Shown here: positions 20,710-31,338 of the stretch, one piece after another
Position numbering within the stretch: the first letter of the stretch is position 1
Layout: each line of letters starts with the position of its first letter
Source: Verrucomicrobiia bacterium
GTDB taxonomy: Bacteria > Verrucomicrobiota > Verrucomicrobiia > Verrucomicrobiales > DEV007
Assembly: GCA_030427505.1 (NCBI GenBank)
Contig: JAUICH010000007.1
Coordinates: 186,001-250,000, forward strand
Direction of reading: 5' to 3'
DNA: 64,000 bases
The notes under the pieces: model-generated
What the model was told of the DNA's origin: nothing
Seen by the model: the letters and a program-made list of their open reading frames with translations, nothing else
Database searches by the model: none
Program-made: the position numbers and the translations under genes

Positions 20710-21321
20710 CTACCGCACCCGGCCCGTCCCGCCGCAATCCGTGCAAGGCACCTGCTCCCCGGAAAAGTCGTTGTCCATCCGCAGGACATAGCCCTTTCCG
20801 TTGCACCGGTAGCAGACTTTGCCGGCATTCACCGGAGGCGCCAGTGGTGGCGAAGACGGAGCGCTGGCCGTCTGAGGCGCAGAGACTGGCGCGGCCTCCC
20901 GGGAGGCGCCGGTCTCATTTTCTTGAGGCAACGTCACGGCAGCGGAGGTCATCGGATCAGCCCCAGCCGCTTCCGGCTTCTTCCGTGCGCCGAAAGCCGG
21001 TTTCGCGCCGGGCGAGTCCACCGGTGGGGACTGACCAAAGTAGCGGGGCCGGGGAGATTCGTCCGGTCCATAGTAGTAAGGAGAGGCATCGTCCGCGGCG
21101 CTCCCGCCTTCCGCGTCGTACACGTCCTCGCCGTTTTCCCTGGCCAGTTTCTTCGCCTTCCGGTCCGCCTGCCGGCTGGCCATCAGCCCCTGTAGCTCCG
21201 ACGCCTGATCCTTCAGCGGATTCTTCACCCGCACAAAGCCATTGGCGCAGCCCCCCAGCACCAGCAGGCCGGAAACGGCCACCATCAGGCGAAAGACAGG
21301 ACTGGAAAGGCAGCAACTCAT
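20710..21321 (-). CDS. Predicted lipoprotein with DnaJ-type zinc-finger motifs
   Basis: This 203-residue protein of unknown function has a lipoprotein signal: a hydrophobic segment, then LGGC. A low-complexity Pro/Ala/Ser middle follows. The C-terminus holds two CxxCxGxG-type motifs, CYRCNGKGY and CTDCGGTGR, the zinc-binding repeat of DnaJ, which is unusual on an exported lipoprotein. It lies downstream of no recognised partner and may close the polysaccharide locus. The start at 21321 was chosen because the signal peptide begins there. Confidence 0.6.
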   Translation of the reverse strand: MSCCLSSPVFRLMVAVSGLLVLGGCANGFVRVKNPLKDQASELQGLMASRQADRKAKKLARENGEDVYDAEGGSAADDASPYYYGPDESPRPRYFGQSPPVDSPGAKPAFGARKKPEAAGADPMTSAAVTLPQENETGASREAAPVSAPQTASAPSSPPLAPPVNAGKVCYRCNGKGYVLRMDNDFSGEQVPCTDCGGTGRVR

Positions 21322-21638
21322 GAGGCCAGGAAATTCCGGGCAAAGCACCCCGGTACCCGGAATCGCGGCATCAGCGGACCCCGGAACGCGTTTCTCCGGG
21401 GAAATAGCCCAGAAAAGCAGGGGATTCAACGCCTACTTCCGCCCGGCCCCCGTCCGCGCGGCCCCCCCGGGGCCGGGGAACCCCTCCTGACACCCGGTCC
21501 TCGCCGTCGTAGTCCCCAGCCGTTCCGGGCTGGCCGGACAGACCCAGGTTCATGGAAAACCGTGCTTGCAGTTTCCGGAGATTGAGAGGCGATGAAATCT
21601 TGAGCCACTGGAGTGGCCCAGCTTGTCAAGCGGGCGAG
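21322..21638. other. Gap at island boundary
   Basis: No gene is supported in these 317 bases. The left part is extremely GC-rich; the right part drops in GC toward the defence island, so one island edge probably lies here. No direct repeat, tRNA or integrase was found that would define an attachment site. Confidence 0.5.
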
Positions 21639-22370
21639 CTAGTCTGCCGGTTTATCAAGCGAAATACCACGGTATAACATGGGGTGTGAGCCGGAAACGG
21701 CTTCTCTGAGCTTGGAGTCTTCGGCAGACTTGTGAAGAGCATACAATTTGCATACTCGCTTTTCGTCATCGGTCGAGTGGACCAATATATGCTTAAAATA
21801 CAACTCCTCCTTTTCGAAGCCCGATTCGTATATGTGCCAGATTAGTAGCTCAAGCATTCGAATATGTTGCCCCAAAACAGGCTTTAGGGTGCTCGGCCAA
21901 ATTTTCCTGAATTGCGCTTCCAGATTCTTTTCGTATTCTGGCCCCTCATTCAAATGTCTTACTGTGCCTGCCTGAGATATATTGTACCAAGCGCTTCCGT
22001 AAGCCTCCCGCCCCGAACTCTCGCCGAAATATAGTTTAGCAGAGTGATCATTCCAAGTTTTGAGCAATTGGTAAAACACCTCCTCAAACCGTTGCCTTTC
22101 GGCCCGCTCCGTTAACTCGGAAATTTCCTTGCTCTGCGCTTGGAGTTGCTGGTGTTGAAGATAAATCGCGACAACAACACCGACTGCTCCGAGCCCGGCA
22201 AAAAAGGCATTGAAGGCTCCCCACGAATCGCCGATGTGCCCGGCAAACTCGGAATCTTGAGAAAGAAAGCCACTGATTACCACGTAATAGATTGCGGCGG
22301 CAACTACATAGCCAACGACTCCAAGCAGGGCTAGATGCCCAAGAGAAATTCCCCCTTTTTGATTGCTCAT
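21639..22370 (-). CDS. Putative phage abortive infection protein (putAbiC-like)
   Basis: This 243-residue protein has two membrane helices (about 14-34 and 53-71), the motif HIGDSWGAFNAFFAGLGAVG, and then a coiled coil (about 73-95). This start pattern is typical of the putative AbiC family (PF16872), membrane proteins linked with phage defence. The remaining 150 residues are helical, with YFKHILVHSTDDEK near the end. Its start overlaps the stop of the upstream TPR gene by 4 bp, so they form one operon. Its context beside a restriction system supports a defence role. Base composition is lower in GC than in flanking genes. Confidence 0.68.
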   Translation of the reverse strand: MSNQKGGISLGHLALLGVVGYVVAAAIYYVVISGFLSQDSEFAGHIGDSWGAFNAFFAGLGAVGVVVAIYLQHQQLQAQSKEISELTERAERQRFEEVFYQLLKTWNDHSAKLYFGESSGREAYGSAWYNISQAGTVRHLNEGPEYEKNLEAQFRKIWPSTLKPVLGQHIRMLELLIWHIYESGFEKEELYFKHILVHSTDDEKRVCKLYALHKSAEDSKLREAVSGSHPMLYRGISLDKPAD

Positions 22371-22855
22371 AAACTTGAAGAGAGCCTCTCCCATAGCGGC
22401 TCGAGGTCGGTGTCGTCGAGTGCGAGCCGCTTGTATTCCGCTTCCATAGCGCAAGCCTTGCCGACGTATTCGCCCGCCCGGTCAAGGTCGCCTAGCTGGC
22501 ATTCGTAGCAGCCGAGATTATACCAGTAAAGCGCTTCGCCCTCTAGGTAGTCGCTGCCTAGCTCGAGGAAAAGCTTTGCCGCCTCAAGGCATTCCGCTCG
22601 GCGAATACAGTATGCCCCGGTAAGGTAGAGGTCGGGTGATTCGGGATATAGCCGAATCGCTCCTCGAGCGATGGTCGCGCCCATCTCCCACCGCTCCATG
22701 GCTTGAAGGACGGCGAGCCGCATGACGAGGACGGGCTCGTCGGTTTTGCGCTCGGGCGGCAATTCTTCGAGCGCGTCCCAAGCGGCCTGGTGCATTCCTA
22801 GCTCGAGGTAGCCGGAAGCTTCGACAAGTTGGTGGGGCGGGTCGCTCTGGGTCAC
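22367..22855 (-). CDS. Small TPR protein
   Basis: This 162-residue soluble protein is made almost only of helical repeats. ASGYLELGMHQAAWDALEEL, GAYCIRRAECLEAAKLFLEL and NLGCYECQLGDLDRAGEYV fit the TPR consensus. No signal peptide or enzymatic motif is visible. It probably mediates protein contact. Its 4-bp overlap with the AbiC-like gene suggests a two-gene defence unit, but standalone TPR proteins also occur in many other contexts. Confidence 0.7.
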   Translation of the reverse strand: MTQSDPPHQLVEASGYLELGMHQAAWDALEELPPERKTDEPVLVMRLAVLQAMERWEMGATIARGAIRLYPESPDLYLTGAYCIRRAECLEAAKLFLELGSDYLEGEALYWYNLGCYECQLGDLDRAGEYVGKACAMEAEYKRLALDDTDLEPLWERLSSSL

Positions 22856-22920
22856 GAAACGCTATCATACCCCAAAGAAAACGCTTGTCCACGTAAGGGG
22901 TTAGCTATTCAAATAGCTCG

Positions 22921-24093
22921 ATGGGATTCCGTTTCCGCCACCGTAGAAAGGGCAAGCGTTCAACTGGCCTATCGGGGTGCATTGCGATTTGCGGGCTAGG
23001 AAGCTTGGCCTTCTTCGCTTTCCTCTCCGCCGTCGTGAATCCCGCACTGGAGCAGGCGGAAAACGAATCGAAGCAGGAGGTTAGCGAGCGCCGGGAGGAG
23101 GATACGCGGCGATTCCGGCAAGAGGCTAAAGACGACCGGCAGGCCCTTGTTGCGCTCGAGACGGACGGCACGCCCGACAATGCCGGTGAGAGCCCGCAGA
23201 GTCGAGCCGCCGTGTTGAACCCATTTGCCGATGTCGAGCCGCTAGCGGCGGAACCAGAGCCCGCCGAGTCAGCGCAAGCCGTCAATCTCTTCCCGACAAA
23301 TTCGCAAACATGGCACTCGGCCACCGGGCAAGCCGTGCTCGGTCAGATTCTCGCTTTTGACCAAGCCGCCCAAACGGTGGTGCTCAAGCGCGCGGACGGC
23401 GAAATATTTGAGGGCTATGCCTTAGACAAGCTCTCCGAACCTGACCGGCAATACCTCGAGCAACTTGCCAAGGCAGCGCTAACGGGGAAGGTCATCGGCA
23501 TCTCGGACGGCGACACGTTTACGCTTTTGACCGTCAATAATCAGCAGGAGCGAATCCGGCTTCAAGGCATTGATTGTCCGGAAGACGGCCAGGAGTTCTC
23601 TAACAACGCGAAGCAGGGGCTCGGCCAGAAGATTTTCGGCCAAGAAGTTTCCGTGCGGGTAACGGGCCGAGACGTATACAAGCGCACGCTGGGCGTCGTT
23701 TTCGTCGGGCGGGAAAACGTTAACCTCTGGCTTGTGCAAGAAGGGCTCGCGTGGCACTTCACGAAGTATTCGGATGACGAAGACCTAGCCGCCGCAGAGA
23801 AGCAGGCGAGGAGCGCCAAGAGGGGCCTTTGGAGCGCTTACAAGCCCATGCCGCCGTGGGATTTTCGGGAACTTGGCAGCGCGGCACAGAATCGCGCTCA
23901 GACGCTCACAAGCTCGCCCGGTAAGCCATCATCGCCCGAGCCGGAGGTAAGGAGCCAGCCAGCGGCTAGCTACTGGCTTAACACGAGTAGTTATACGAGG
24001 CACAATAGCCGTTGCCGGTGGTTTGCCAACACCAAGAGCGGGCGATATTGCACGAAGGACGAGGGTAGGGCTTGCGGAATTTGTGGGGGGTAA
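22921..24093 (+). CDS. Membrane-anchored SHD1-thermonuclease protein
   Basis: This 390-residue protein has a basic start, one membrane segment (about 20-40), a charged coiled stretch, an SHD1-like module (about 130-183, GQILAFDQAAQTVVLKRADG ... LSEPDRQYLEQ) and a staphylococcal-nuclease domain (about 188-310). The nuclease has IRLQGIDCPE and RVTGRDVYKR, carrying the R/E/R catalytic set near R213, E221 or E225, and R255. The C-terminal 35 residues bear a Cys/His cluster (HNSRCRWF ... C ... CGICGG) that may bind metal. It is probably a surface-exposed DNase. It converges on the methyltransferase gene, 9 bp away. Confidence 0.75.
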   Translation: MGFRFRHRRKGKRSTGLSGCIAICGLGSLAFFAFLSAVVNPALEQAENESKQEVSERREEDTRRFRQEAKDDRQALVALETDGTPDNAGESPQSRAAVLNPFADVEPLAAEPEPAESAQAVNLFPTNSQTWHSATGQAVLGQILAFDQAAQTVVLKRADGEIFEGYALDKLSEPDRQYLEQLAKAALTGKVIGISDGDTFTLLTVNNQQERIRLQGIDCPEDGQEFSNNAKQGLGQKIFGQEVSVRVTGRDVYKRTLGVVFVGRENVNLWLVQEGLAWHFTKYSDDEDLAAAEKQARSAKRGLWSAYKPMPPWDFRELGSAAQNRAQTLTSSPGKPSSPEPEVRSQPAASYWLNTSSYTRHNSRCRWFANTKSGRYCTKDEGRACGICGG

Positions 24094-24102
24094 GGAATGC
24101 TC

Positions 24103-25314
24103 CTAGTTTTCGAAAAGCTCCAACGTTCCGTTTGAGTGCGATCCGTTTGCCTTCTCTCGCACGCTTTCACAAGTCCACAATTTCCGCCGTACCCTTTCGA
24201 CCTTGGTCTTGGGAGGGAATAGACTGTTGTAATTGGATCGGTATTTTTCGATGAACACTTTCTCTTCGTCGAGGCCGTCCATTCTTTGCTTGATCCCGTC
24301 CACCGGGCCGATCTCGCAACCCTCCCACCTCCGTCCTTTAATCTCCGCTGCGGCGTAGGTTGTCCCGGAACCGCCGAAAGGGTCGAATACGAGATCGCCT
24401 TTTTTCGAAGCCATCTCGACTATCCTATCGAGAAGCTTAATTGACAGCTCGTTGGCCTCTTTGCGCCTCTTGTATTTGGAGTGCCTTACCGGCGGAATAT
24501 CCATCCAAATATCGGTCAAGTTTACCCCTTCGGGATTCATTTTTGCCTTATAACCACCATAGTCGCGAAGATCCCCGAAACACTTCGGGCAAACTTCCAT
24601 GGGCATTCGGTCAGGGGTGAAGGTTGTGGGTTTTGGTCCCTTGGTAAAATAAAGCAGAGAGTAATGGGAAGGGTAAAGGCGTCCTGCGATAGGTAGGGAA
24701 TACTTGAGGTCGATAGCTATCCAGTGCCGAAAAGTTAGGCGTTTCGTCAGGAATTCACCGATAGGAATATTCCATTTCGGCAAATTGTAGACGAAAAAGC
24801 TTCCGCCGTATTTCAGGGTTCGAACGCACTCGTCAAGCCATTCTAGGCACCACTCGGCATATTCATCTTCGGCAAGCGAATCGTCGATTTTTGATGCGTA
24901 AGTCTTATTGAGGTTGAAGGGCGGATCGGCAAAAATAAGGTCATAGCGCTCTGACTCCACCGTCTTCAAATATTCGACGCAGTCGGCTCGAAATAACTTG
25001 CCCGCCTCGGTGGAGAGGTCGGGCTTGAAACGATTTGTGCCTTTTTTGGGGCTGTTTGGCGGTATTGGCTCGCGACCGTCCAATCGAGCAATTACGGATT
25101 CGTCGACCAGTCCGAGTCGGATTTTCGTGCTGACTAAATCCTTGTCGGTTGCTTGGCAAAGGTTCTCAAGATCCTTGACGCTCGGCAGCTTCTTGGAGCG
25201 ATGCAAATAAGCGAGAGTTTCTCGAGAGATTCCGCATTCGTCGGCAAGCCGAGAGACCTCTTTTTGTGATCGTGAATTTACGCCTAATGCGTCTAAAATG
25301 CTCTGAACCGCCAT
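24103..25314 (-). CDS. Type II DNA methyltransferase with N-terminal HTH
   Basis: This 403-residue methyltransferase protects host DNA from the BamHI-like endonuclease encoded divergently. The catalytic motif IV is ADPPF (D130-F133) and the SAM motif I DPFGGSGTT lies at 311-319. This IV-before-I order fits the beta class; it could methylate N6-adenine or N4-cytosine. Residues about 15-55 resemble a helix-turn-helix, so it may also regulate its own promoter. The start codon lies 2 bp from the C-box. The target is inferred as GGATCC from the neighbour. Confidence 0.85.
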   Translation of the reverse strand: MAVQSILDALGVNSRSQKEVSRLADECGISRETLAYLHRSKKLPSVKDLENLCQATDKDLVSTKIRLGLVDESVIARLDGREPIPPNSPKKGTNRFKPDLSTEAGKLFRADCVEYLKTVESERYDLIFADPPFNLNKTYASKIDDSLAEDEYAEWCLEWLDECVRTLKYGGSFFVYNLPKWNIPIGEFLTKRLTFRHWIAIDLKYSLPIAGRLYPSHYSLLYFTKGPKPTTFTPDRMPMEVCPKCFGDLRDYGGYKAKMNPEGVNLTDIWMDIPPVRHSKYKRRKEANELSIKLLDRIVEMASKKGDLVFDPFGGSGTTYAAAEIKGRRWEGCEIGPVDGIKQRMDGLDEEKVFIEKYRSNYNSLFPPKTKVERVRRKLWTCESVREKANGSHSNGTLELFEN

Positions 25315-25315
25315 A

Positions 25316-25348
25316 TGTGACTGTAGACTATAGTCCGTAGATTGTCCA
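25316..25348. promoter_or_regulatory. C-box operator of the restriction-modification system
   Basis: The 58-bp gap between the divergent methyltransferase and controller genes holds TGTGACT, the palindrome GACTATAGTC, then CGTAGATTGTC. This resembles C-protein operators, in which GACT/AGTC half-sites flank a central TATAGTCCGT core. Controller binding here would activate C and R and limit M. Confidence 0.65.
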
Positions 25349-25372
25349 TTGGCGAAGACTTAGCATCGGCGA

Positions 25373-25606
25373 TTGAACCCGAGTGAAGCCTTCGCGAAGG
25401 TGATCCGTGAGCTTCGGACATCTCGCAACATGTCGCAAGAGAAGCTCGCAGAATTGAGCGGATTGGATCGCACGTTCGTTTCCATGTTGGAGCGTGGGCG
25501 GCGGCAACCGTCAATCACTACGTTATTCGCTTTGGCCAAGGCTCTTTCGATGGAGCCGTCTCGGATCGTTAGAATGATCGAGAAAGAGGCCGATGAAGGT
25601 AGTTAG
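25373..25606 (+). CDS. Restriction controller (C) protein, XRE family
   Basis: This 77-residue HTH protein has the XRE pattern FAKVIRELRTSRNMSQEKLAELSGLDRTFVS followed by LERGRRQPSITTLFALAKAL, as in C.BamHI/C.PvuII-type controllers. It delays endonuclease expression after entry into a new host. The start is TTG, because the frame has a stop 12 bases upstream and no ATG. Its 3' end overlaps the endonuclease gene by 14 bp, so both are co-translated. Confidence 0.83.
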   Translation: MNPSEAFAKVIRELRTSRNMSQEKLAELSGLDRTFVSMLERGRRQPSITTLFALAKALSMEPSRIVRMIEKEADEGS

Positions 25607-26195
25607 GAAAGAAATTCTCTTTGACCACGCGGGGGCGGCTTCCAACGAATGGTTTCGCGCAGCAATAGCGGAGGTCGAGAAAGCAATTGAGTCCGTGAAG
25701 TGGCCTCATGGCTCCGGCGATTTCGCAATCAATCCAATCAATAAGGGAAATGGTGTAAAACCGATCAAGAATACTTTCATTGCGAGCCTTGCTCAAAAGG
25801 GGTGGCAACCTGAACTCCGACTCAAGGTGTATGGTGAACGTCGGCCCGGACCGATTGATGCTGCAAAGTGGATAAAATCCGAAAGTCGGTATTTTGCCGC
25901 CGAGTGGGAAACGGGCAATATCTCCTCGAGTCATCGTGCCCTGAATAAGCTGACGATGGGAATCTTACGCGACACTCTGCTTGGCGGGGTGCTCGTGCTT
26001 CCTTCTCGGGCGTTTTATCGTTTCCTCACAGATCGAATTGGAAACTTTCAAGAGCTAGAGCCCTATTTTCCCGTCTGGAAGAGTCTCGACACCGCCAAGA
26101 AGGGCGTTTTAGCCGTCATTGAAGTCGAGCATGACCGCACTTCTTCGGACGTTCCCCAAATCGAGAAGGGGACCGACGGTCGGGCGCTCTTGTGA
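25593..26195 (+). CDS. Type II restriction endonuclease, BamHI family
   Basis: This 200-residue protein matches BamHI in remembered key blocks: FAINPINKGNGVKPIK, GPIDAAK, AEWETGNISSSHRALNKL, LTDRIGNFQELEPYF and IEKGTDG. The catalytic residues correspond to D89, E104 and E106. The DNA-reading positions N109, S111, R115, D147 and R148 match those that contact GGATCC in BamHI. It should cut GGATCC. It overlaps the controller gene. The length is near that of BamHI (213), so it appears intact. Confidence 0.85.
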   Translation: MKVVRKEILFDHAGAASNEWFRAAIAEVEKAIESVKWPHGSGDFAINPINKGNGVKPIKNTFIASLAQKGWQPELRLKVYGERRPGPIDAAKWIKSESRYFAAEWETGNISSSHRALNKLTMGILRDTLLGGVLVLPSRAFYRFLTDRIGNFQELEPYFPVWKSLDTAKKGVLAVIEVEHDRTSSDVPQIEKGTDGRALL

Positions 26196-26404
26196 AATAA
26201 TCTCCCCTTAAAATCGTGTCACTGGTCGTGTCACTTTTGGTGCATTTTGACCGATTTTCGGTTCATTTCCCTGCACTTTACCGCCCCGGCACACGGACAC
26301 GAAAAAACCCGTAAGTCGTTAAATCTACAGGCTTTAAAGTGGTTGAAGGGACCGGAGCTGAACCGCCTAACCGGATACGGGAACGGAGAGACCCGGAAAA
26401 AAAT

Positions 26405-28507
26405 TCAGACTCGCCGTTTGGCGCAGTTGGATAGCACGGTTTCGACCCGGTGGGGATCGATGGGGAGGAAGATTTTGCGGTTGTCCGCGACTTGGGGGAG
26501 GGCTTCGGTGGCATCTCCGATCAGGGTCACGAGGCGGTCCAGGTCTTCGCTCCGGAGGGGGCCTTCCGTTTCTTCGAATGAGGGGAGGGCTTCGGCATCG
26601 GCGATGATGGCGTCGTAGCCATGGTCGTCTAGCGCTTGCCGGAGGTCCTGGCCTTCCTCCGCCTGGTGGCCTGCTTTTTCGGCGAAGGCGACCAACAGCT
26701 GGCGGTTGATGCCGTTCCGTGCCACGACCGCGATGCGCAGGCTTTGGTGGGAGGGTGAGGCGCCGTGGTTGCGGATCGGGATGGTAAACCAAAAGCGGCT
26801 GCCTTTGCCGGGGGTGCTCTCGCATCTGATGATGCCGCCCATCATTTCCACGAGCGACTTGCAGATGGCCAGGCCCAGGCCGGCGCCCTCGCGGCGCTCG
26901 CGTCCTTCGCCAAACTGGGTAAAGGGCTGAAAGAGCCGGTCCCGGTCGGCGGCGGAAATGCCGACGCCGGTATCTTCGATCTCGAAACGAAGCTGGTCTT
27001 CCGGGGCCCTGGGGTCGCGATCCAGCCGGACGGTCACGCCTCCTTCCTCGGTAAACTTGAGGGCATTGTTGATCAGATTCAGGAGCACCTGGCGGAGCCG
27101 GTTGGCGTCGCCCCGAATCTCGGCGGGCACGTCTGGACTGATTTCGGCGGTCAGTTTCAGTTTTTCCTCGCCGGCCTTGGCCATCAGGATTGCGGCGGAT
27201 TCGGTGACGCAGGCCGCCGGTGAAAAGACGTCGTCGTTCAGTTCGATGCGTCCGCGCTCGATCCGGGACAGGTCCAGAGTGTCGTTGATGATGTGGAGCA
27301 GCACCTCGCCGCTGGCGCGGATAGTGTTCAGGAAGTTCCGCTGTTTCTCGTTCATGCCGGTCTCGGCCAGCACGTCGGCGAAGCCGATGATGCCATTGAG
27401 CGGGGTGCGGATCTCGTGACTGAGGTTGGCCATGAAGACCGACTTGGCGGCATTGGCCCGCTCGGCCTCATCCTTGGCCCGGGCCAGGTCGCGGGCGGAC
27501 TCTTCCCGCTCGTTTTCGAGCCGCCGTTTCTCGGTGATGTCCCGGATGATGCCCTGGACCAGCTTCTGGTTTCCCAGTTCGAAGGAACTGGCGGAGATCT
27601 CCGCGAGAAAGGTGCTTCCGTCGTGGCGAAGAAACTCGGCTTCGAACCGGTGGGCACCCGAGGTGGTGACCTTTTCCATGGCGGTCTTGCACACCGGCAG
27701 CCATTCCCGGGGATGAAGATCCGGCAAGGTCATGCCGATGATGTCGCGTATTCTGAAGCCAAAGAGACGGGCGGCGGTGCGGTTGACGTCGATGATCTGC
27801 CCGTTGATATCGTGGATGATGATCCCATCCATCGATCGCTGGAAGACTTCCGTAAATCGTCGTTCCTTTTCCGCCAGTTCCTGCTGGGTGATGTCCCGGG
27901 CCAGTTCGCTTCCCAAGGCGGTGGCGATGATCTCAAGGATCTGTTCGCAGAAAGGGTCGAGAACGATGTGAGTTTTGAAGAATGCCGTGAGGACACCGCG
28001 AAGCTCGCCGCGATACACCACCGGGTACCCTGCCCCGAGCCGGTAGTTGCCAGAGTCCTGGCCCAGCTCGCTGGTAATGCAGAGGCCCTTGTCGGGGCCG
28101 CGCATGGCGATGGTGCGGCACATGTCCACCGCCATGGGTGGTTGGGCGGATACGTCCGCCAGCCAGACTTTGGCCAGCCGCAGGTCGAAGCCGTCTGCGA
28201 TGCAAAAGCGGACCGCGTCCGCTCTGAGGACGTCTCCACAAACGTGGGTCAGTCTTTCGATGTTGTCCTCAAAATCGCCGCGCAGCCCGATCAGCACCCG
28301 GTTTAATTCGACGAGCCCCGACTCGTTGTCGGCGAGCCGGCGGGTCCTCTCCGCCACCAGGATCTCGAGGTCGCGGGCCTGTTGCAGCAGGTTGCGGTTT
28401 GCCTGATAAAGCTCCCGGCTCTTTTCTTCGAGAAAACGTTCGGCTTCCTGCCGGGCGATGCGTTCGCGCCGAAGCCGCTTTTCCCACTTGCTGTCCACGG
28501 ATTCCAT
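26405..28507 (-). CDS. H-NOX-associated hybrid histidine kinase
   Basis: This 700-residue soluble kinase has a coiled coil (about 10-60), a GAF-like domain (75-205), a PAS domain (215-330), HisKA with phospho-acceptor H364 (NLSHEIRTPLNG), HATPase (465-580) and a C-terminal receiver-like domain (595-690). The receiver is degenerate: its expected acidic pair is VARN, although an Asp remains in IIADAEALP. The H-NOX gene ends 6 bp upstream, the usual layout in which H-NOX controls kinase activity according to bound nitric oxide. Output probably goes to the divergent REC-HPt protein. Confidence 0.87.
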   Translation of the reverse strand: MESVDSKWEKRLRRERIARQEAERFLEEKSRELYQANRNLLQQARDLEILVAERTRRLADNESGLVELNRVLIGLRGDFEDNIERLTHVCGDVLRADAVRFCIADGFDLRLAKVWLADVSAQPPMAVDMCRTIAMRGPDKGLCITSELGQDSGNYRLGAGYPVVYRGELRGVLTAFFKTHIVLDPFCEQILEIIATALGSELARDITQQELAEKERRFTEVFQRSMDGIIIHDINGQIIDVNRTAARLFGFRIRDIIGMTLPDLHPREWLPVCKTAMEKVTTSGAHRFEAEFLRHDGSTFLAEISASSFELGNQKLVQGIIRDITEKRRLENEREESARDLARAKDEAERANAAKSVFMANLSHEIRTPLNGIIGFADVLAETGMNEKQRNFLNTIRASGEVLLHIINDTLDLSRIERGRIELNDDVFSPAACVTESAAILMAKAGEEKLKLTAEISPDVPAEIRGDANRLRQVLLNLINNALKFTEEGGVTVRLDRDPRAPEDQLRFEIEDTGVGISAADRDRLFQPFTQFGEGRERREGAGLGLAICKSLVEMMGGIIRCESTPGKGSRFWFTIPIRNHGASPSHQSLRIAVVARNGINRQLLVAFAEKAGHQAEEGQDLRQALDDHGYDAIIADAEALPSFEETEGPLRSEDLDRLVTLIGDATEALPQVADNRKIFLPIDPHRVETVLSNCAKRRV

Positions 28508-28513
28508 GACGGC

Positions 28514-29056
28514 TTAGCCGGTTCGTTTCACATGAAAAGATACGCCTTCCTCCGGGCGTTCGGGGTTCTTCCGGGTAACCGTGGCGGTTTCTCCAAAATG
28601 AGCAAGACACCCCTCGATCAGACCGCCGGCCAAGTCTTCGAAGTGTTTCCCTGAGTGATAGACCATCACCAACTCGTTGGAATTTGGCCGGGTACAATCG
28701 AAGCGGGGAAGATCCGCGTTAGGGTAGAGTTTCCGCACCTCCACGTGAATGTAGTTCTCCACGCCCTCCAGGAAGTCGAGCGCGTTCTCGGCGGTATTCA
28801 CCATCTCCGGGTAAAGGGCGGCGAAGCGGGAAAACAGATACGCGCCAAAATGGGCGAGCAATTCCTGTACGGGTTTGCCAGTCACCTCACTCAGCTGAGT
28901 CACGAGGGAAACGATTTCCCGGTGGTCGTAGGTGCCGACGGCGGTGTAGGCTCCCCCCGAGGGCAAATCGGAGCGTTCAATGATCTCATCGACCGTGTCG
29001 AACCCGAAGGCGGACTCGACCAAGCCCATGAATTCGGTAAAAATGACACCTTTCAT
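28514..29056 (-). CDS. H-NOX heme nitric-oxide/oxygen sensor
   Basis: This 180-residue stand-alone H-NOX (HNOB) protein has the proximal heme histidine H104 in IHVEVRKLYPNADLPRF. The Y-x-S-x-R motif that holds the heme propionates appears as Y133-H-S135-G-K137, a conservative Arg to Lys change. It would bind nitric oxide and modulate the partner kinase just downstream. The gene is divergent from the REC-HPt gene, with a 54-bp shared promoter region. Confidence 0.9.
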   Translation of the reverse strand: MKGVIFTEFMGLVESAFGFDTVDEIIERSDLPSGGAYTAVGTYDHREIVSLVTQLSEVTGKPVQELLAHFGAYLFSRFAALYPEMVNTAENALDFLEGVENYIHVEVRKLYPNADLPRFDCTRPNSNELVMVYHSGKHFEDLAGGLIEGCLAHFGETATVTRKNPERPEEGVSFHVKRTG

Positions 29057-29110
29057 AAGGAGCGGGGAAGAATGTTGTGCAATGTTTGGTGGGTTTGATT
29101 AGGTAGGATC

Positions 29111-29926
29111 ATGGAAGAAAAACGAAGCCTCGGGACGACACCTTCCATTACGGGCCTCCGGGTATTGGTAGCCGAAGACAACGAGATTAACCTCGAACTC
29201 TGCCTCCAGTATCTGGACGACTTGGGGCTCGAAGAGGTCCAGTCCGCGGGAGACGGCGAGGAGGTGCTCAGAATGCTGGAGGCGGAGCCGGGCCGCTTCG
29301 ACGTCATCCTGATGGATGTCCGCATGCCGCGGCTGGACGGGCTCGCCACGACTCGCGAGATTTTGAAACGCTGGCCCGAATCGGACGCGCGTCCCGGCAT
29401 TGTGGCCATCACGGCCCAGGCTTTTGAGGAGGAGCGGCGGAACTGCCTGCGTGCCGGCATGGATTTCTGCCTGTCCAAACCCCTGCGCTTGAGAGACCTG
29501 GAGTCCGCGCTGGGCGCATGGATCACTCGCGGGAGATCGGCGGAGTTCTCCGCGGCTCCAGAAGCTGAAGAAACCACCTCCGGGAACATTGACTGGTCCC
29601 AGTTCGAGAAAGTCGTGGAGGACGCCTTCTCTCCCTGCGTGGCTATCTTCCACCGGTTTTGCGAGACCGTGCCCGAGTTGCTGGAAAAGATCCGCGCCGC
29701 CGCGGCGGCGGGAGACGCCGGAGAGGCCGGGTCCGTCGCGCACCAGTTAAAGGGGTCTTCCTCTTCATTTGGATTAACCAGAATCGCTGGCGCCATGGCG
29801 GAAATAGAGGCGGCCGCCAGGACGGGCGGCGATGTGTCCCGGTTTTCCTCTCCCCAGTGGGAAGCCGAAATGAAAGCTGCCTTCGCCCGGGATCGCGCGA
29901 ACATTCGTGACAGGCGCGGCATCTGA
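29111..29926 (+). CDS. Response regulator receiver-HPt phosphorelay protein
   Basis: This 271-residue protein has a CheY-like receiver (phospho-Asp D69 in ILMDVRMPRLDG, with AEDNE for metal binding) and a C-terminal HPt domain whose histidine is H211 in AHQLKGSSSSFG. It has no DNA-binding or enzyme output, so it probably relays phosphate from the H-NOX-associated kinase to a further response regulator, possibly the adjacent NtrC-type protein. It is transcribed away from the H-NOX gene and converges on the regulator gene. Confidence 0.87.
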   Translation: MEEKRSLGTTPSITGLRVLVAEDNEINLELCLQYLDDLGLEEVQSAGDGEEVLRMLEAEPGRFDVILMDVRMPRLDGLATTREILKRWPESDARPGIVAITAQAFEEERRNCLRAGMDFCLSKPLRLRDLESALGAWITRGRSAEFSAAPEAEETTSGNIDWSQFEKVVEDAFSPCVAIFHRFCETVPELLEKIRAAAAAGDAGEAGSVAHQLKGSSSSFGLTRIAGAMAEIEAAARTGGDVSRFSSPQWEAEMKAAFARDRANIRDRRGI

Positions 29927-29967
29927 GTCTTGCGGGCGGCGGCCATGCGGACAGGGGAGGGGGCTTG

Positions 29968-31338
29968 TTAGACTAAGCCAAAGCGGCGCAGTTTGTTGTA
30001 GACGGACTTTTCGGTAATCCCGAGCCGGCGGGCCGCCTCCGCTTTATTCCCGCCGCTGGCTCTCAGCGTCTGGACGAGGGCGGCTCTCTCGATGTCGCGG
30101 AGAGGGAGGTTGGCGAGGTTCAGGTGCTCGCTTTCGCCATCCAGATCGGGCTCCTGGCTTACCTCGGCAGGCAGGTCGGCTACCTGGATGGTGTTGTCTT
30201 CACAAAAGGCCGAGGAACGTTCCAGGGCATTTTCCAGTTGGCGGATGTTTCCCGGCCAGTCGTGGCGTTGCAGAGTCTTCAGTGCGCTGGCCGAAAGCCG
30301 GAGACCGCTGGAAATGCCACGGTCCCGGGCGATGCGGGCGAGAAAGAACTCGCACAGGATGGAGATGTCTTCCACCCGCTCGCGCAGGGGCGGAATCTCC
30401 AGGGGAATCACGTTCAGGCGATAGAACAAATCCTCGCGAAATTCGCGGCGTTCCACCAGGTCTTCCAGGCCCACATTGGTCGCGGCAATCACCCGGATGT
30501 TCGCGGGCAGGGTATCGGTTCCGCCCACGCGTTGAAATTCGCGGTCCTGCAGGACGTTGAGCAGCTTTGGCTGAAGATCGAGCGGCAGGTCGCCTATCTC
30601 ATCCAGGAACAGGGTGCCGCCGGCGGCCATTTCGATTTTGCCGATGCGCCGCTGGTGGGCCCCGGTGAAAGCGCCCTTTTCGTGGCCGAAGAGTTCGGAC
30701 TCCAGCAGTTCCCGGGGCAGGGCGGGGCAACTCACCGTCACGAAGGGCTGGCCGGACCGGCCGCTGGCGTAGTGAATGGTCCTCGCGACCAGCCCTTTGC
30801 CCACCCCGCTCTCGCCCCGCAAGAGCACGGTGGAGTCGAGACCGCTGATCTTCTCGATCTGGGCGATCATCTTCTTCGTTACCTCGCTGTCGCCCACGAT
30901 TCCGGTGACCGGCCGGGACTCGCTGACCGATTGCCGCAGTTCGCGGTTTTCCCGGCGCAGCCGGGACAGCTCAAAGGCCTGCCGGAGCACCAGAAATACT
31001 TCGTCCAGGTCAAAGGGCTTGGTCAGGTAGTCGACCGCGCCCGCCTTCATCGCGGCGACCGCGTCCTCGATCTCGTCCGCCGACGACAAGATGACCGCCG
31101 GTAGATCGGGAAACTTGGCGCCCAGGAACTTGAGACAGTCGAAGCCATTCCCGTTGGGCATGTTCAGGTCCAGCAGGGCGACATCCGCCTCGTCGTCCAC
31201 TAGTTCCATGAAGTCCTCCCCGCATTCCGCCAGGACGGGTTCGAATCCCCGCTTCTGCGAATGGTATTCTAACAAATTCCGGACGGTTTCGTCGTCGTCC
31301 GCAATGAGGAGACGGAGTCGCTGGGAGGGCTTTGCCAT
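29968..31338 (-). CDS. Sigma-54-dependent response regulator (NtrC family)
   Basis: This 456-residue activator has a receiver domain (phospho-Asp D57 in [11 protein letters not shown]), an AAA+ domain with Walker A GESGVGKG, the sigma-54 contact loop GAFTGA and Walker [12 protein letters not shown]. It ends with a Fis-type HTH ([24 protein letters not shown]). It is the last gene of the exopolysaccharide run, only 40 bp after the GT26 gene, and a sigma-54-like promoter precedes the first gene of that run. It is likely the terminal regulator of the nearby phosphorelay and of glycan production. Confidence 0.92.

Follow-up and report, generated by a model that had tools for sequence, protein, structure and literature searches.

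A complete BamHI/OkrAI-type restriction-modification system near a candidate defence gene, a distant putAbiC/AbiP-type membrane protein, in a Verrucomicrobiia genome

Introduction

The restriction endonuclease BamHI is insensitive to N6-methyladenine (m6A) within GGATCC, and the DPPF motif of DNA methyltransferases is usually taken as an m6A methyltransferase motif. OkrAI is an isoschizomer of BamHI, as stated in a published source (PMC9416302). For membrane proteins of the abortive-infection (Abi) kind, the closest described counterparts of the protein studied here are the putAbiC family (PF16872) and lactococcal AbiP, to which PdpSau, described with an OB-like part, has been likened; a literature search with putAbiC or PF16872 as terms returned no paper.

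Here we analyze a six-gene segment within a 64,000-nucleotide stretch (the window) from a Verrucomicrobiia bacterium, whose assembly comprises 6.41 Mb in 56 contigs. A sequence-only reading had described the segment as a compact defence island, and its open frames were all recovered at or near the places assigned there: a membrane protein (P0001), a small tetratricopeptide repeat (TPR) protein (P0002), an SNase-type nuclease (P0003), a methyltransferase (M), a controller protein (C) and an endonuclease (R). By homology, M, C and R are a complete type II restriction-modification (R-M) system of the BamHI/OkrAI kind, and P0001, by itself alone, is a fair candidate for a defence gene. The stretch appears mostly ordinary, with this one Abi lead. 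Our preferred explanation, held tentatively and with slightly less than even confidence, is an accessory patch of three unrelated things: the R-M system, P0001 as a phage-blocking membrane protein, and P0002 and P0003 as bystanders.

Results

The proposed restriction system was borne out in full, with M, C and R each recognized by family models (Table 1). R scores 193.6 bits against PF02923, where the cut-off is 22.8, and residues 1-199 of its 200 align with OkrAI (3odh; E 1.1e-63), the match to BamHI having an E of 1.7e-24. A BamHI-family endonuclease, an adjacent methyltransferase and a C protein with an operator core, the parts that make up a BamHI/OkrAI system, are all present. These parts are identified by homology, and from them R is predicted to cut unmethylated GGATCC; M would shield the host DNA by methylation, and C would bind the operator lying between M and C and time the expression of C and R upon arrival in a new host.

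Scanning genome contigs revealed 16 related R loci, recorded under the names of bacteria of several phyla; the restriction locus of L010 is near-identical to that of L011. Identity to R is 49-58% in 15 of them and 33% in the remaining one. A related M was detected by tblastn in 15 of the 16 loci and a related C in 12, and the M(-) C(+) R(+) order seen here recurs in 11; M and R are divergent with C not detected in L019 and L020, and L021, which is without M, begins near a contig end. The same M-C-R order is found on two annotated plasmids, and R relatives occur in four plasmid records and in none of the phage or viral collections searched. The 10-mer GACTATAGTC, which we take to be the C-box, is present in the same gap in 9 of the 16 related loci and in a Desulfocapsa plasmid, with variants of it in the M-C gap of L016 and L022. 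DPPF is found in M of all 15 relatives that have one. As a separate observation, an OkrAI-type M with DPPF would mean either that such enzymes make N4-methylcytosine or that this R lineage is m6A-sensitive.

Avoidance of GGATCC was considered as a sign of the system and set aside, the depletion being moderate: the site occurs 1377 times in the genome, was seen 87 times against 146 expected in 478 kb (0.59; rank 11 of 64 palindromes), and was seen 11 times against 24 expected in the window. The R-M system is an ordinary, extra member of a well-known family.

P0001 has two hydrophobic segments (residues 14-32 and 53-71) and most likely starts at the ATG at 22370, a longer TTG frame running back over P0002. 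Its significant match is limited to phrog_8999, a family of unknown function (E 8.5e-13). Relatives are present in 7 of 288 phylum genomes, its own included; PF16872 is carried by two of the six others, by two of the 288 overall, and not by the genome under study. With a profile of these seven proteins, matches were obtained in 38 of the order's 386 genomes, again with its own included. Against profiles built from 11 putAbiC-type proteins and from 23 putAbiC/AbiP-type relatives, P0001 scores 77.8 bits and 87.7 bits (residues 13-212), respectively; residues 1-115 alone give 76.5 bits with the latter, and when the C-terminal part was shuffled 500 times, the real score was attained once. Of eight relatives compared with the PADLOC AbiP model, five match at E < 0.01, one of the five weakly. 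The profile match, extending over the membrane and helical parts, places P0001 in a putAbiC/AbiP-type superfamily; judged from sequence, the link is firm over the membrane half and modest beyond it. The earlier label "AbiC-like" is upheld to the extent of this profile.

Modelled with 18 viral relatives, P0001 is all-helical with a mean predicted local distance difference test (pLDDT) score of 84.8, showing helices at residues 10-32, a long one at 43-111, and further ones up to 226; a model of P0001 folded alone (pLDDT 50.3) was set aside. The protein would have a hairpin in the membrane, a long stalk of helix and, in the cytoplasm, a bundle of helices, and a nucleic-acid-binding step of the AbiP kind is not supported by this predicted structure.

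The genomic surroundings of P0001 relatives were read at 44 loci, namely 38 regions from the order and six loci from the phylum. The 38 regions (5.4-13 kb) derive from 44 profile places: G000, G024, G111 and G234 were already included, two places in G346 are one gene, and G463, a 58-codon frame, was excluded; L161, a 794 aa kinase among the 38, is probably a coiled-coil false positive. Relatives are also present in 24 viral contigs, of which 18 are in alignment A2 and 12 in the 23-relative profile; L168, L169 and L171 are near-identical in the AbiP-type protein. These viral loci were found via an alignment containing P0001 and hence lean towards it, P0001 itself being outside the profile. Further relatives were seen in an inovirus, in an Akkermansia phage (a short match) and on Vibrio plasmids, where they lie amid small genes in what we read as a cassette-like arrangement. 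Close relatives were sought by single-sequence search in viral contigs, plasmids and phages, and none was found.

PADLOC-model defence genes lie near P0001 relatives in at least 8 of the 44 loci. The loci were picked by eye and then scanned with PADLOC, which makes 8 a minimum, with no background rate to compare; neighbour genes lacking a model match were named by eye. The neighbours include type I restriction (L061, L127, L139), type II methylase and endonuclease (L134, L146) and a TmtA/DrmD-like gene (L143). A same-strand upstream frame at -60 to +150 bp accompanies 17 of the 44 relatives, and such frames include TIR, SIR2-like and PD-T7-4-like genes. P0001 is considered a candidate defence gene because it is a distant member of a phage-carried family found near defence genes, so that this part of the sequence-only reading survives for P0001 alone; the chances that it acts in defence are about evenly balanced.

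Three of these neighbourhoods deserve description in their own right. In L062 (308-10503), a 523 aa putAbiC protein has a SIR2-like protein, a PDC-S06-like ATPase and a IIG-type restriction gene close by. In L066 (7031-9047), which by eye is a prophage-like region, an AbiC-like gene follows 49 bp after a TIR gene (PADLOC TIR-TM, E 4e-31). In L139 (5181-10205), the type I restriction gene is adjoined by an AbiC-like membrane gene that shares 4 bp with a PD-T7-4-like gene.

The stop of P0002 and the ATG of P0001 share 4 bp (ATGA, 22367-22370), just as first reported, and P0002 is probably co-transcribed with P0001. The P0002 family is found in 40 of the 288 phylum genomes, its own included and with some partial matches, and a second copy lies elsewhere in the same genome (L060). 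Fourteen other loci of the family (30-38% identity) have neighbours that by eye include hydrolases, sugar-nucleotide enzymes and DsbA-like proteins, with no AbiC-like gene within about 1.5 kb in any of the 14. Reciprocally, a search for P0002-like genes around P0001 relatives gave none in the 38 order regions, in the six loci from the phylum or in the 24 viral contigs; the same query recovered the second copy in L060, so the search works, and an unrelated TPR gene would escape it. Among all loci examined the pair was seen here alone. The AbiC-TPR module that had been proposed shows no such recurrent co-occurrence, and P0002 is probably not a conserved partner of P0001.

It could still be argued that the two genes form an abortive-infection module in which P0002 senses or restrains and P0001 is the effector. 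Their common strand and overlap would fit, as would the upstream frames in 17 of the 44 relatives, one of them a PD-T7-4-like gene with the same 4 bp overlap, which suggest that upstream partners may be interchangeable. Against this stand the missing recurrence, a P0002 family that is spread over many genomes and has a second place in its own, and the mismatch in guanine-cytosine (GC) content between P0002 (0.607) and P0001 (0.484), and we regard the module as unlikely. The same low probability applies to a broader version, in which P0001-type proteins would be a common downstream effector with interchangeable upstream partners (TIR, SIR2-like, PD-T7-4-like), a lineage-typical TPR protein having been recruited here as sensor or restraint and coupled by the overlap. 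Members of the P0002 family often lie beside a serine-hydrolase-like gene by eye (L060 5808-9587, L029, L035, L038), with a nucleotidyltransferase-like gene also present in three of these four loci; this neighbourhood is possibly a conserved non-defence context.

P0003, which had been described as a membrane-anchored SHD1-nuclease with a Cys/His tail, does possess one hydrophobic segment (residues 21-39), an SNase domain and a C-terminal Cys/His tail; SHD1 itself has no Pfam match at E <= 0.1, and the SHD1-like segment around residues 124-188 is found again in L048 and L049, in two proteins of relatives that differ otherwise. Of 37 genomes, 14 match some part of P0003; the SNase part is matched in 9, its own included, and the remaining ones match the SHD1-like segment or the tail only. 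A similar tail occurs in G297, G313, G289 and G005, together with a shorter SNase in G313. No defence gene was recognized by eye near P0003 relatives in the loci read, where no PADLOC scan of neighbours was made, and this nuclease, suggested before as a defence module, is probably a bystander. The adjacency of the six genes and a match of the SNase domain to PADLOC SNc+LTD (E 4e-8) would favour a single defence island, inherited as one, in which the SNase is the nuclease effector. However, the domain scores higher with Pfam SNase (81 bits) than with the PADLOC model (31 bits), none of the 16 BamHI-type loci holds an SNase, AbiC-like or TPR relative, and none of the 38 AbiC-like regions holds an SNase relative. 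We consider a single island very improbable.

In the layout of the locus (Table 1), the R-M genes adjoin P0003, and both P0003 and P0002 intervene before P0001, so the restriction system is not next to the membrane protein as had been stated. The lower GC content ascribed to the region applies to P0001, M (0.500), R (0.519) and C (0.534) and not to P0002 and P0003 (0.598), which are near or within the 0.598-0.651 range of six flanking genes. The six-gene stretch is a GC patchwork with no single low-GC block, which argues for separate origins of the genes.

Table 1. Features of the six-gene segment, in window coordinates
Feature	Position	Strand	Evidence
P0001, membrane protein, divergent putAbiC/AbiP-type, 243 aa	21639..22370	-	Hydrophobic segments, 23-relative profile, model
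P0002, small TPR protein, 162 aa, GTG start	22367..22855	-	NCBIfam TPR_END_plus E 4e-9
P0003, membrane-anchored SNase-type nuclease, SHD1-like segment, Cys/His tail	22921..24093	+	PF00565 E 8e-23
M, DNA methyltransferase, N-terminal helix-turn-helix (HTH)-like part, DPPF motif	24103..25314	-	PF01555 E 1.7e-39; PADLOC MTase_II E 1e-122
GACTATAGTC, C-box-like operator core in M-C gap	25326..25335		Sole copy in window
C, controller protein, TTG start	25373..25606	+	HTH_3 E 6e-17; PADLOC Control_protein E 1e-16
R, BamHI/OkrAI-type restriction endonuclease	25593..26195	+	PF02923 E 2.3e-57

The left flank is a glycosyltransferase and polysaccharide-export cluster, and the right flank a haem-NO-binding, histidine-kinase and response-regulator cluster, with a PAS histidine kinase, a haem-NO-binding protein, a receiver-Hpt protein and a sigma-54 activator side by side at 26405-31338. 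In G299, gene order is conserved between the kinase and 36565. Signs of integration were sought and discarded: for a remnant near 26200-26450, ARAGORN gave no tRNA in the window, Rfam gave no match at E <= 1 across 21300-26700, and the 301-base right border is single-copy in the genome; direct repeats as element ends amounted to short, weak pairs. G299 was also considered as a clean empty site and rejected, being syntenic from 36565 down to the kinase and then carrying a different gene (an oxidoreductase by eye), and the left border therefore cannot be set.

Discussion

Under the preferred explanation of an accessory patch of unrelated genes, P0001 would most likely block phage development from the membrane after entry, as its relatives suggest, and P0002 and P0003 would belong to families found elsewhere without defence genes. 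Several observations, besides the lacking background rate for defence neighbours, weigh against it. P0001 matches neither PF16872 nor PADLOC AbiC or AbiP at E <= 0.1, and these curated models do not support the label "AbiC-like". Its identity to relatives is 16-28%, i.e. distant; with a C-terminal-only profile it did not rise above shuffles, and a C-terminal putAbiC profile was passed by 1 of the 38 order relatives. Foldseek returned no match for the model at E <= 0.001 in BFVD or PDB, and the all-helical model is without the OB-like part described for PdpSau. The 4 bp overlap with P0002 suggests translational coupling. For the R-M system, M lies downstream of R in 2 of the 16 related loci (L017, L023), and, GGATCC depletion being moderate, nothing shows that it is active.

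Some of these points would fit a P0001 that is not a defence protein but part of a broad membrane family whose roles are different or unknown: it matches no Abi model, the order relatives mostly match it over the N-terminal module, and most neighbourhoods read by eye have no recognized defence gene. On the other hand, the profile match extends to residue 212, with a C-terminal score that shuffles rarely attain, and relatives occur in viral records and near restriction, TIR and PD-T7-4-like genes. We hold this alternative to be possible, if doubtful, and retain P0001 as the lead within the patch. P0001 shows the putAbiC/AbiP-type family to extend beyond the reach of curated models, with several kinds of defence genes nearby, a result usable by annotators; the non-recurrence of the AbiC-TPR pair spares follow-up of the proposed module.

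Compared with putAbiC and lactococcal AbiP, P0001 shares a membrane hairpin, a GD..G..N motif, a helical stalk and QRFE..F..LL, and its match continues weakly into the C-terminal part; it differs in scoring below the curated models, in a strongly diverged C-terminal part and in having no OB-like part. P0003 resembles SNase-type proteins of related genomes, 8 of 36 other genomes having the SNase domain and four genomes (those named above) a similar Cys/His tail, and differs in an added N-terminal anchor and a long part carrying the SHD1-like segment. The R-M system shares with the OkrAI and BamHI systems the PF02923 endonuclease, with its near full-length match to OkrAI, an M divergent from C-R, and a C protein with an operator core, and it differs from them in an M with an N-terminal HTH-like part and the DPPF motif.

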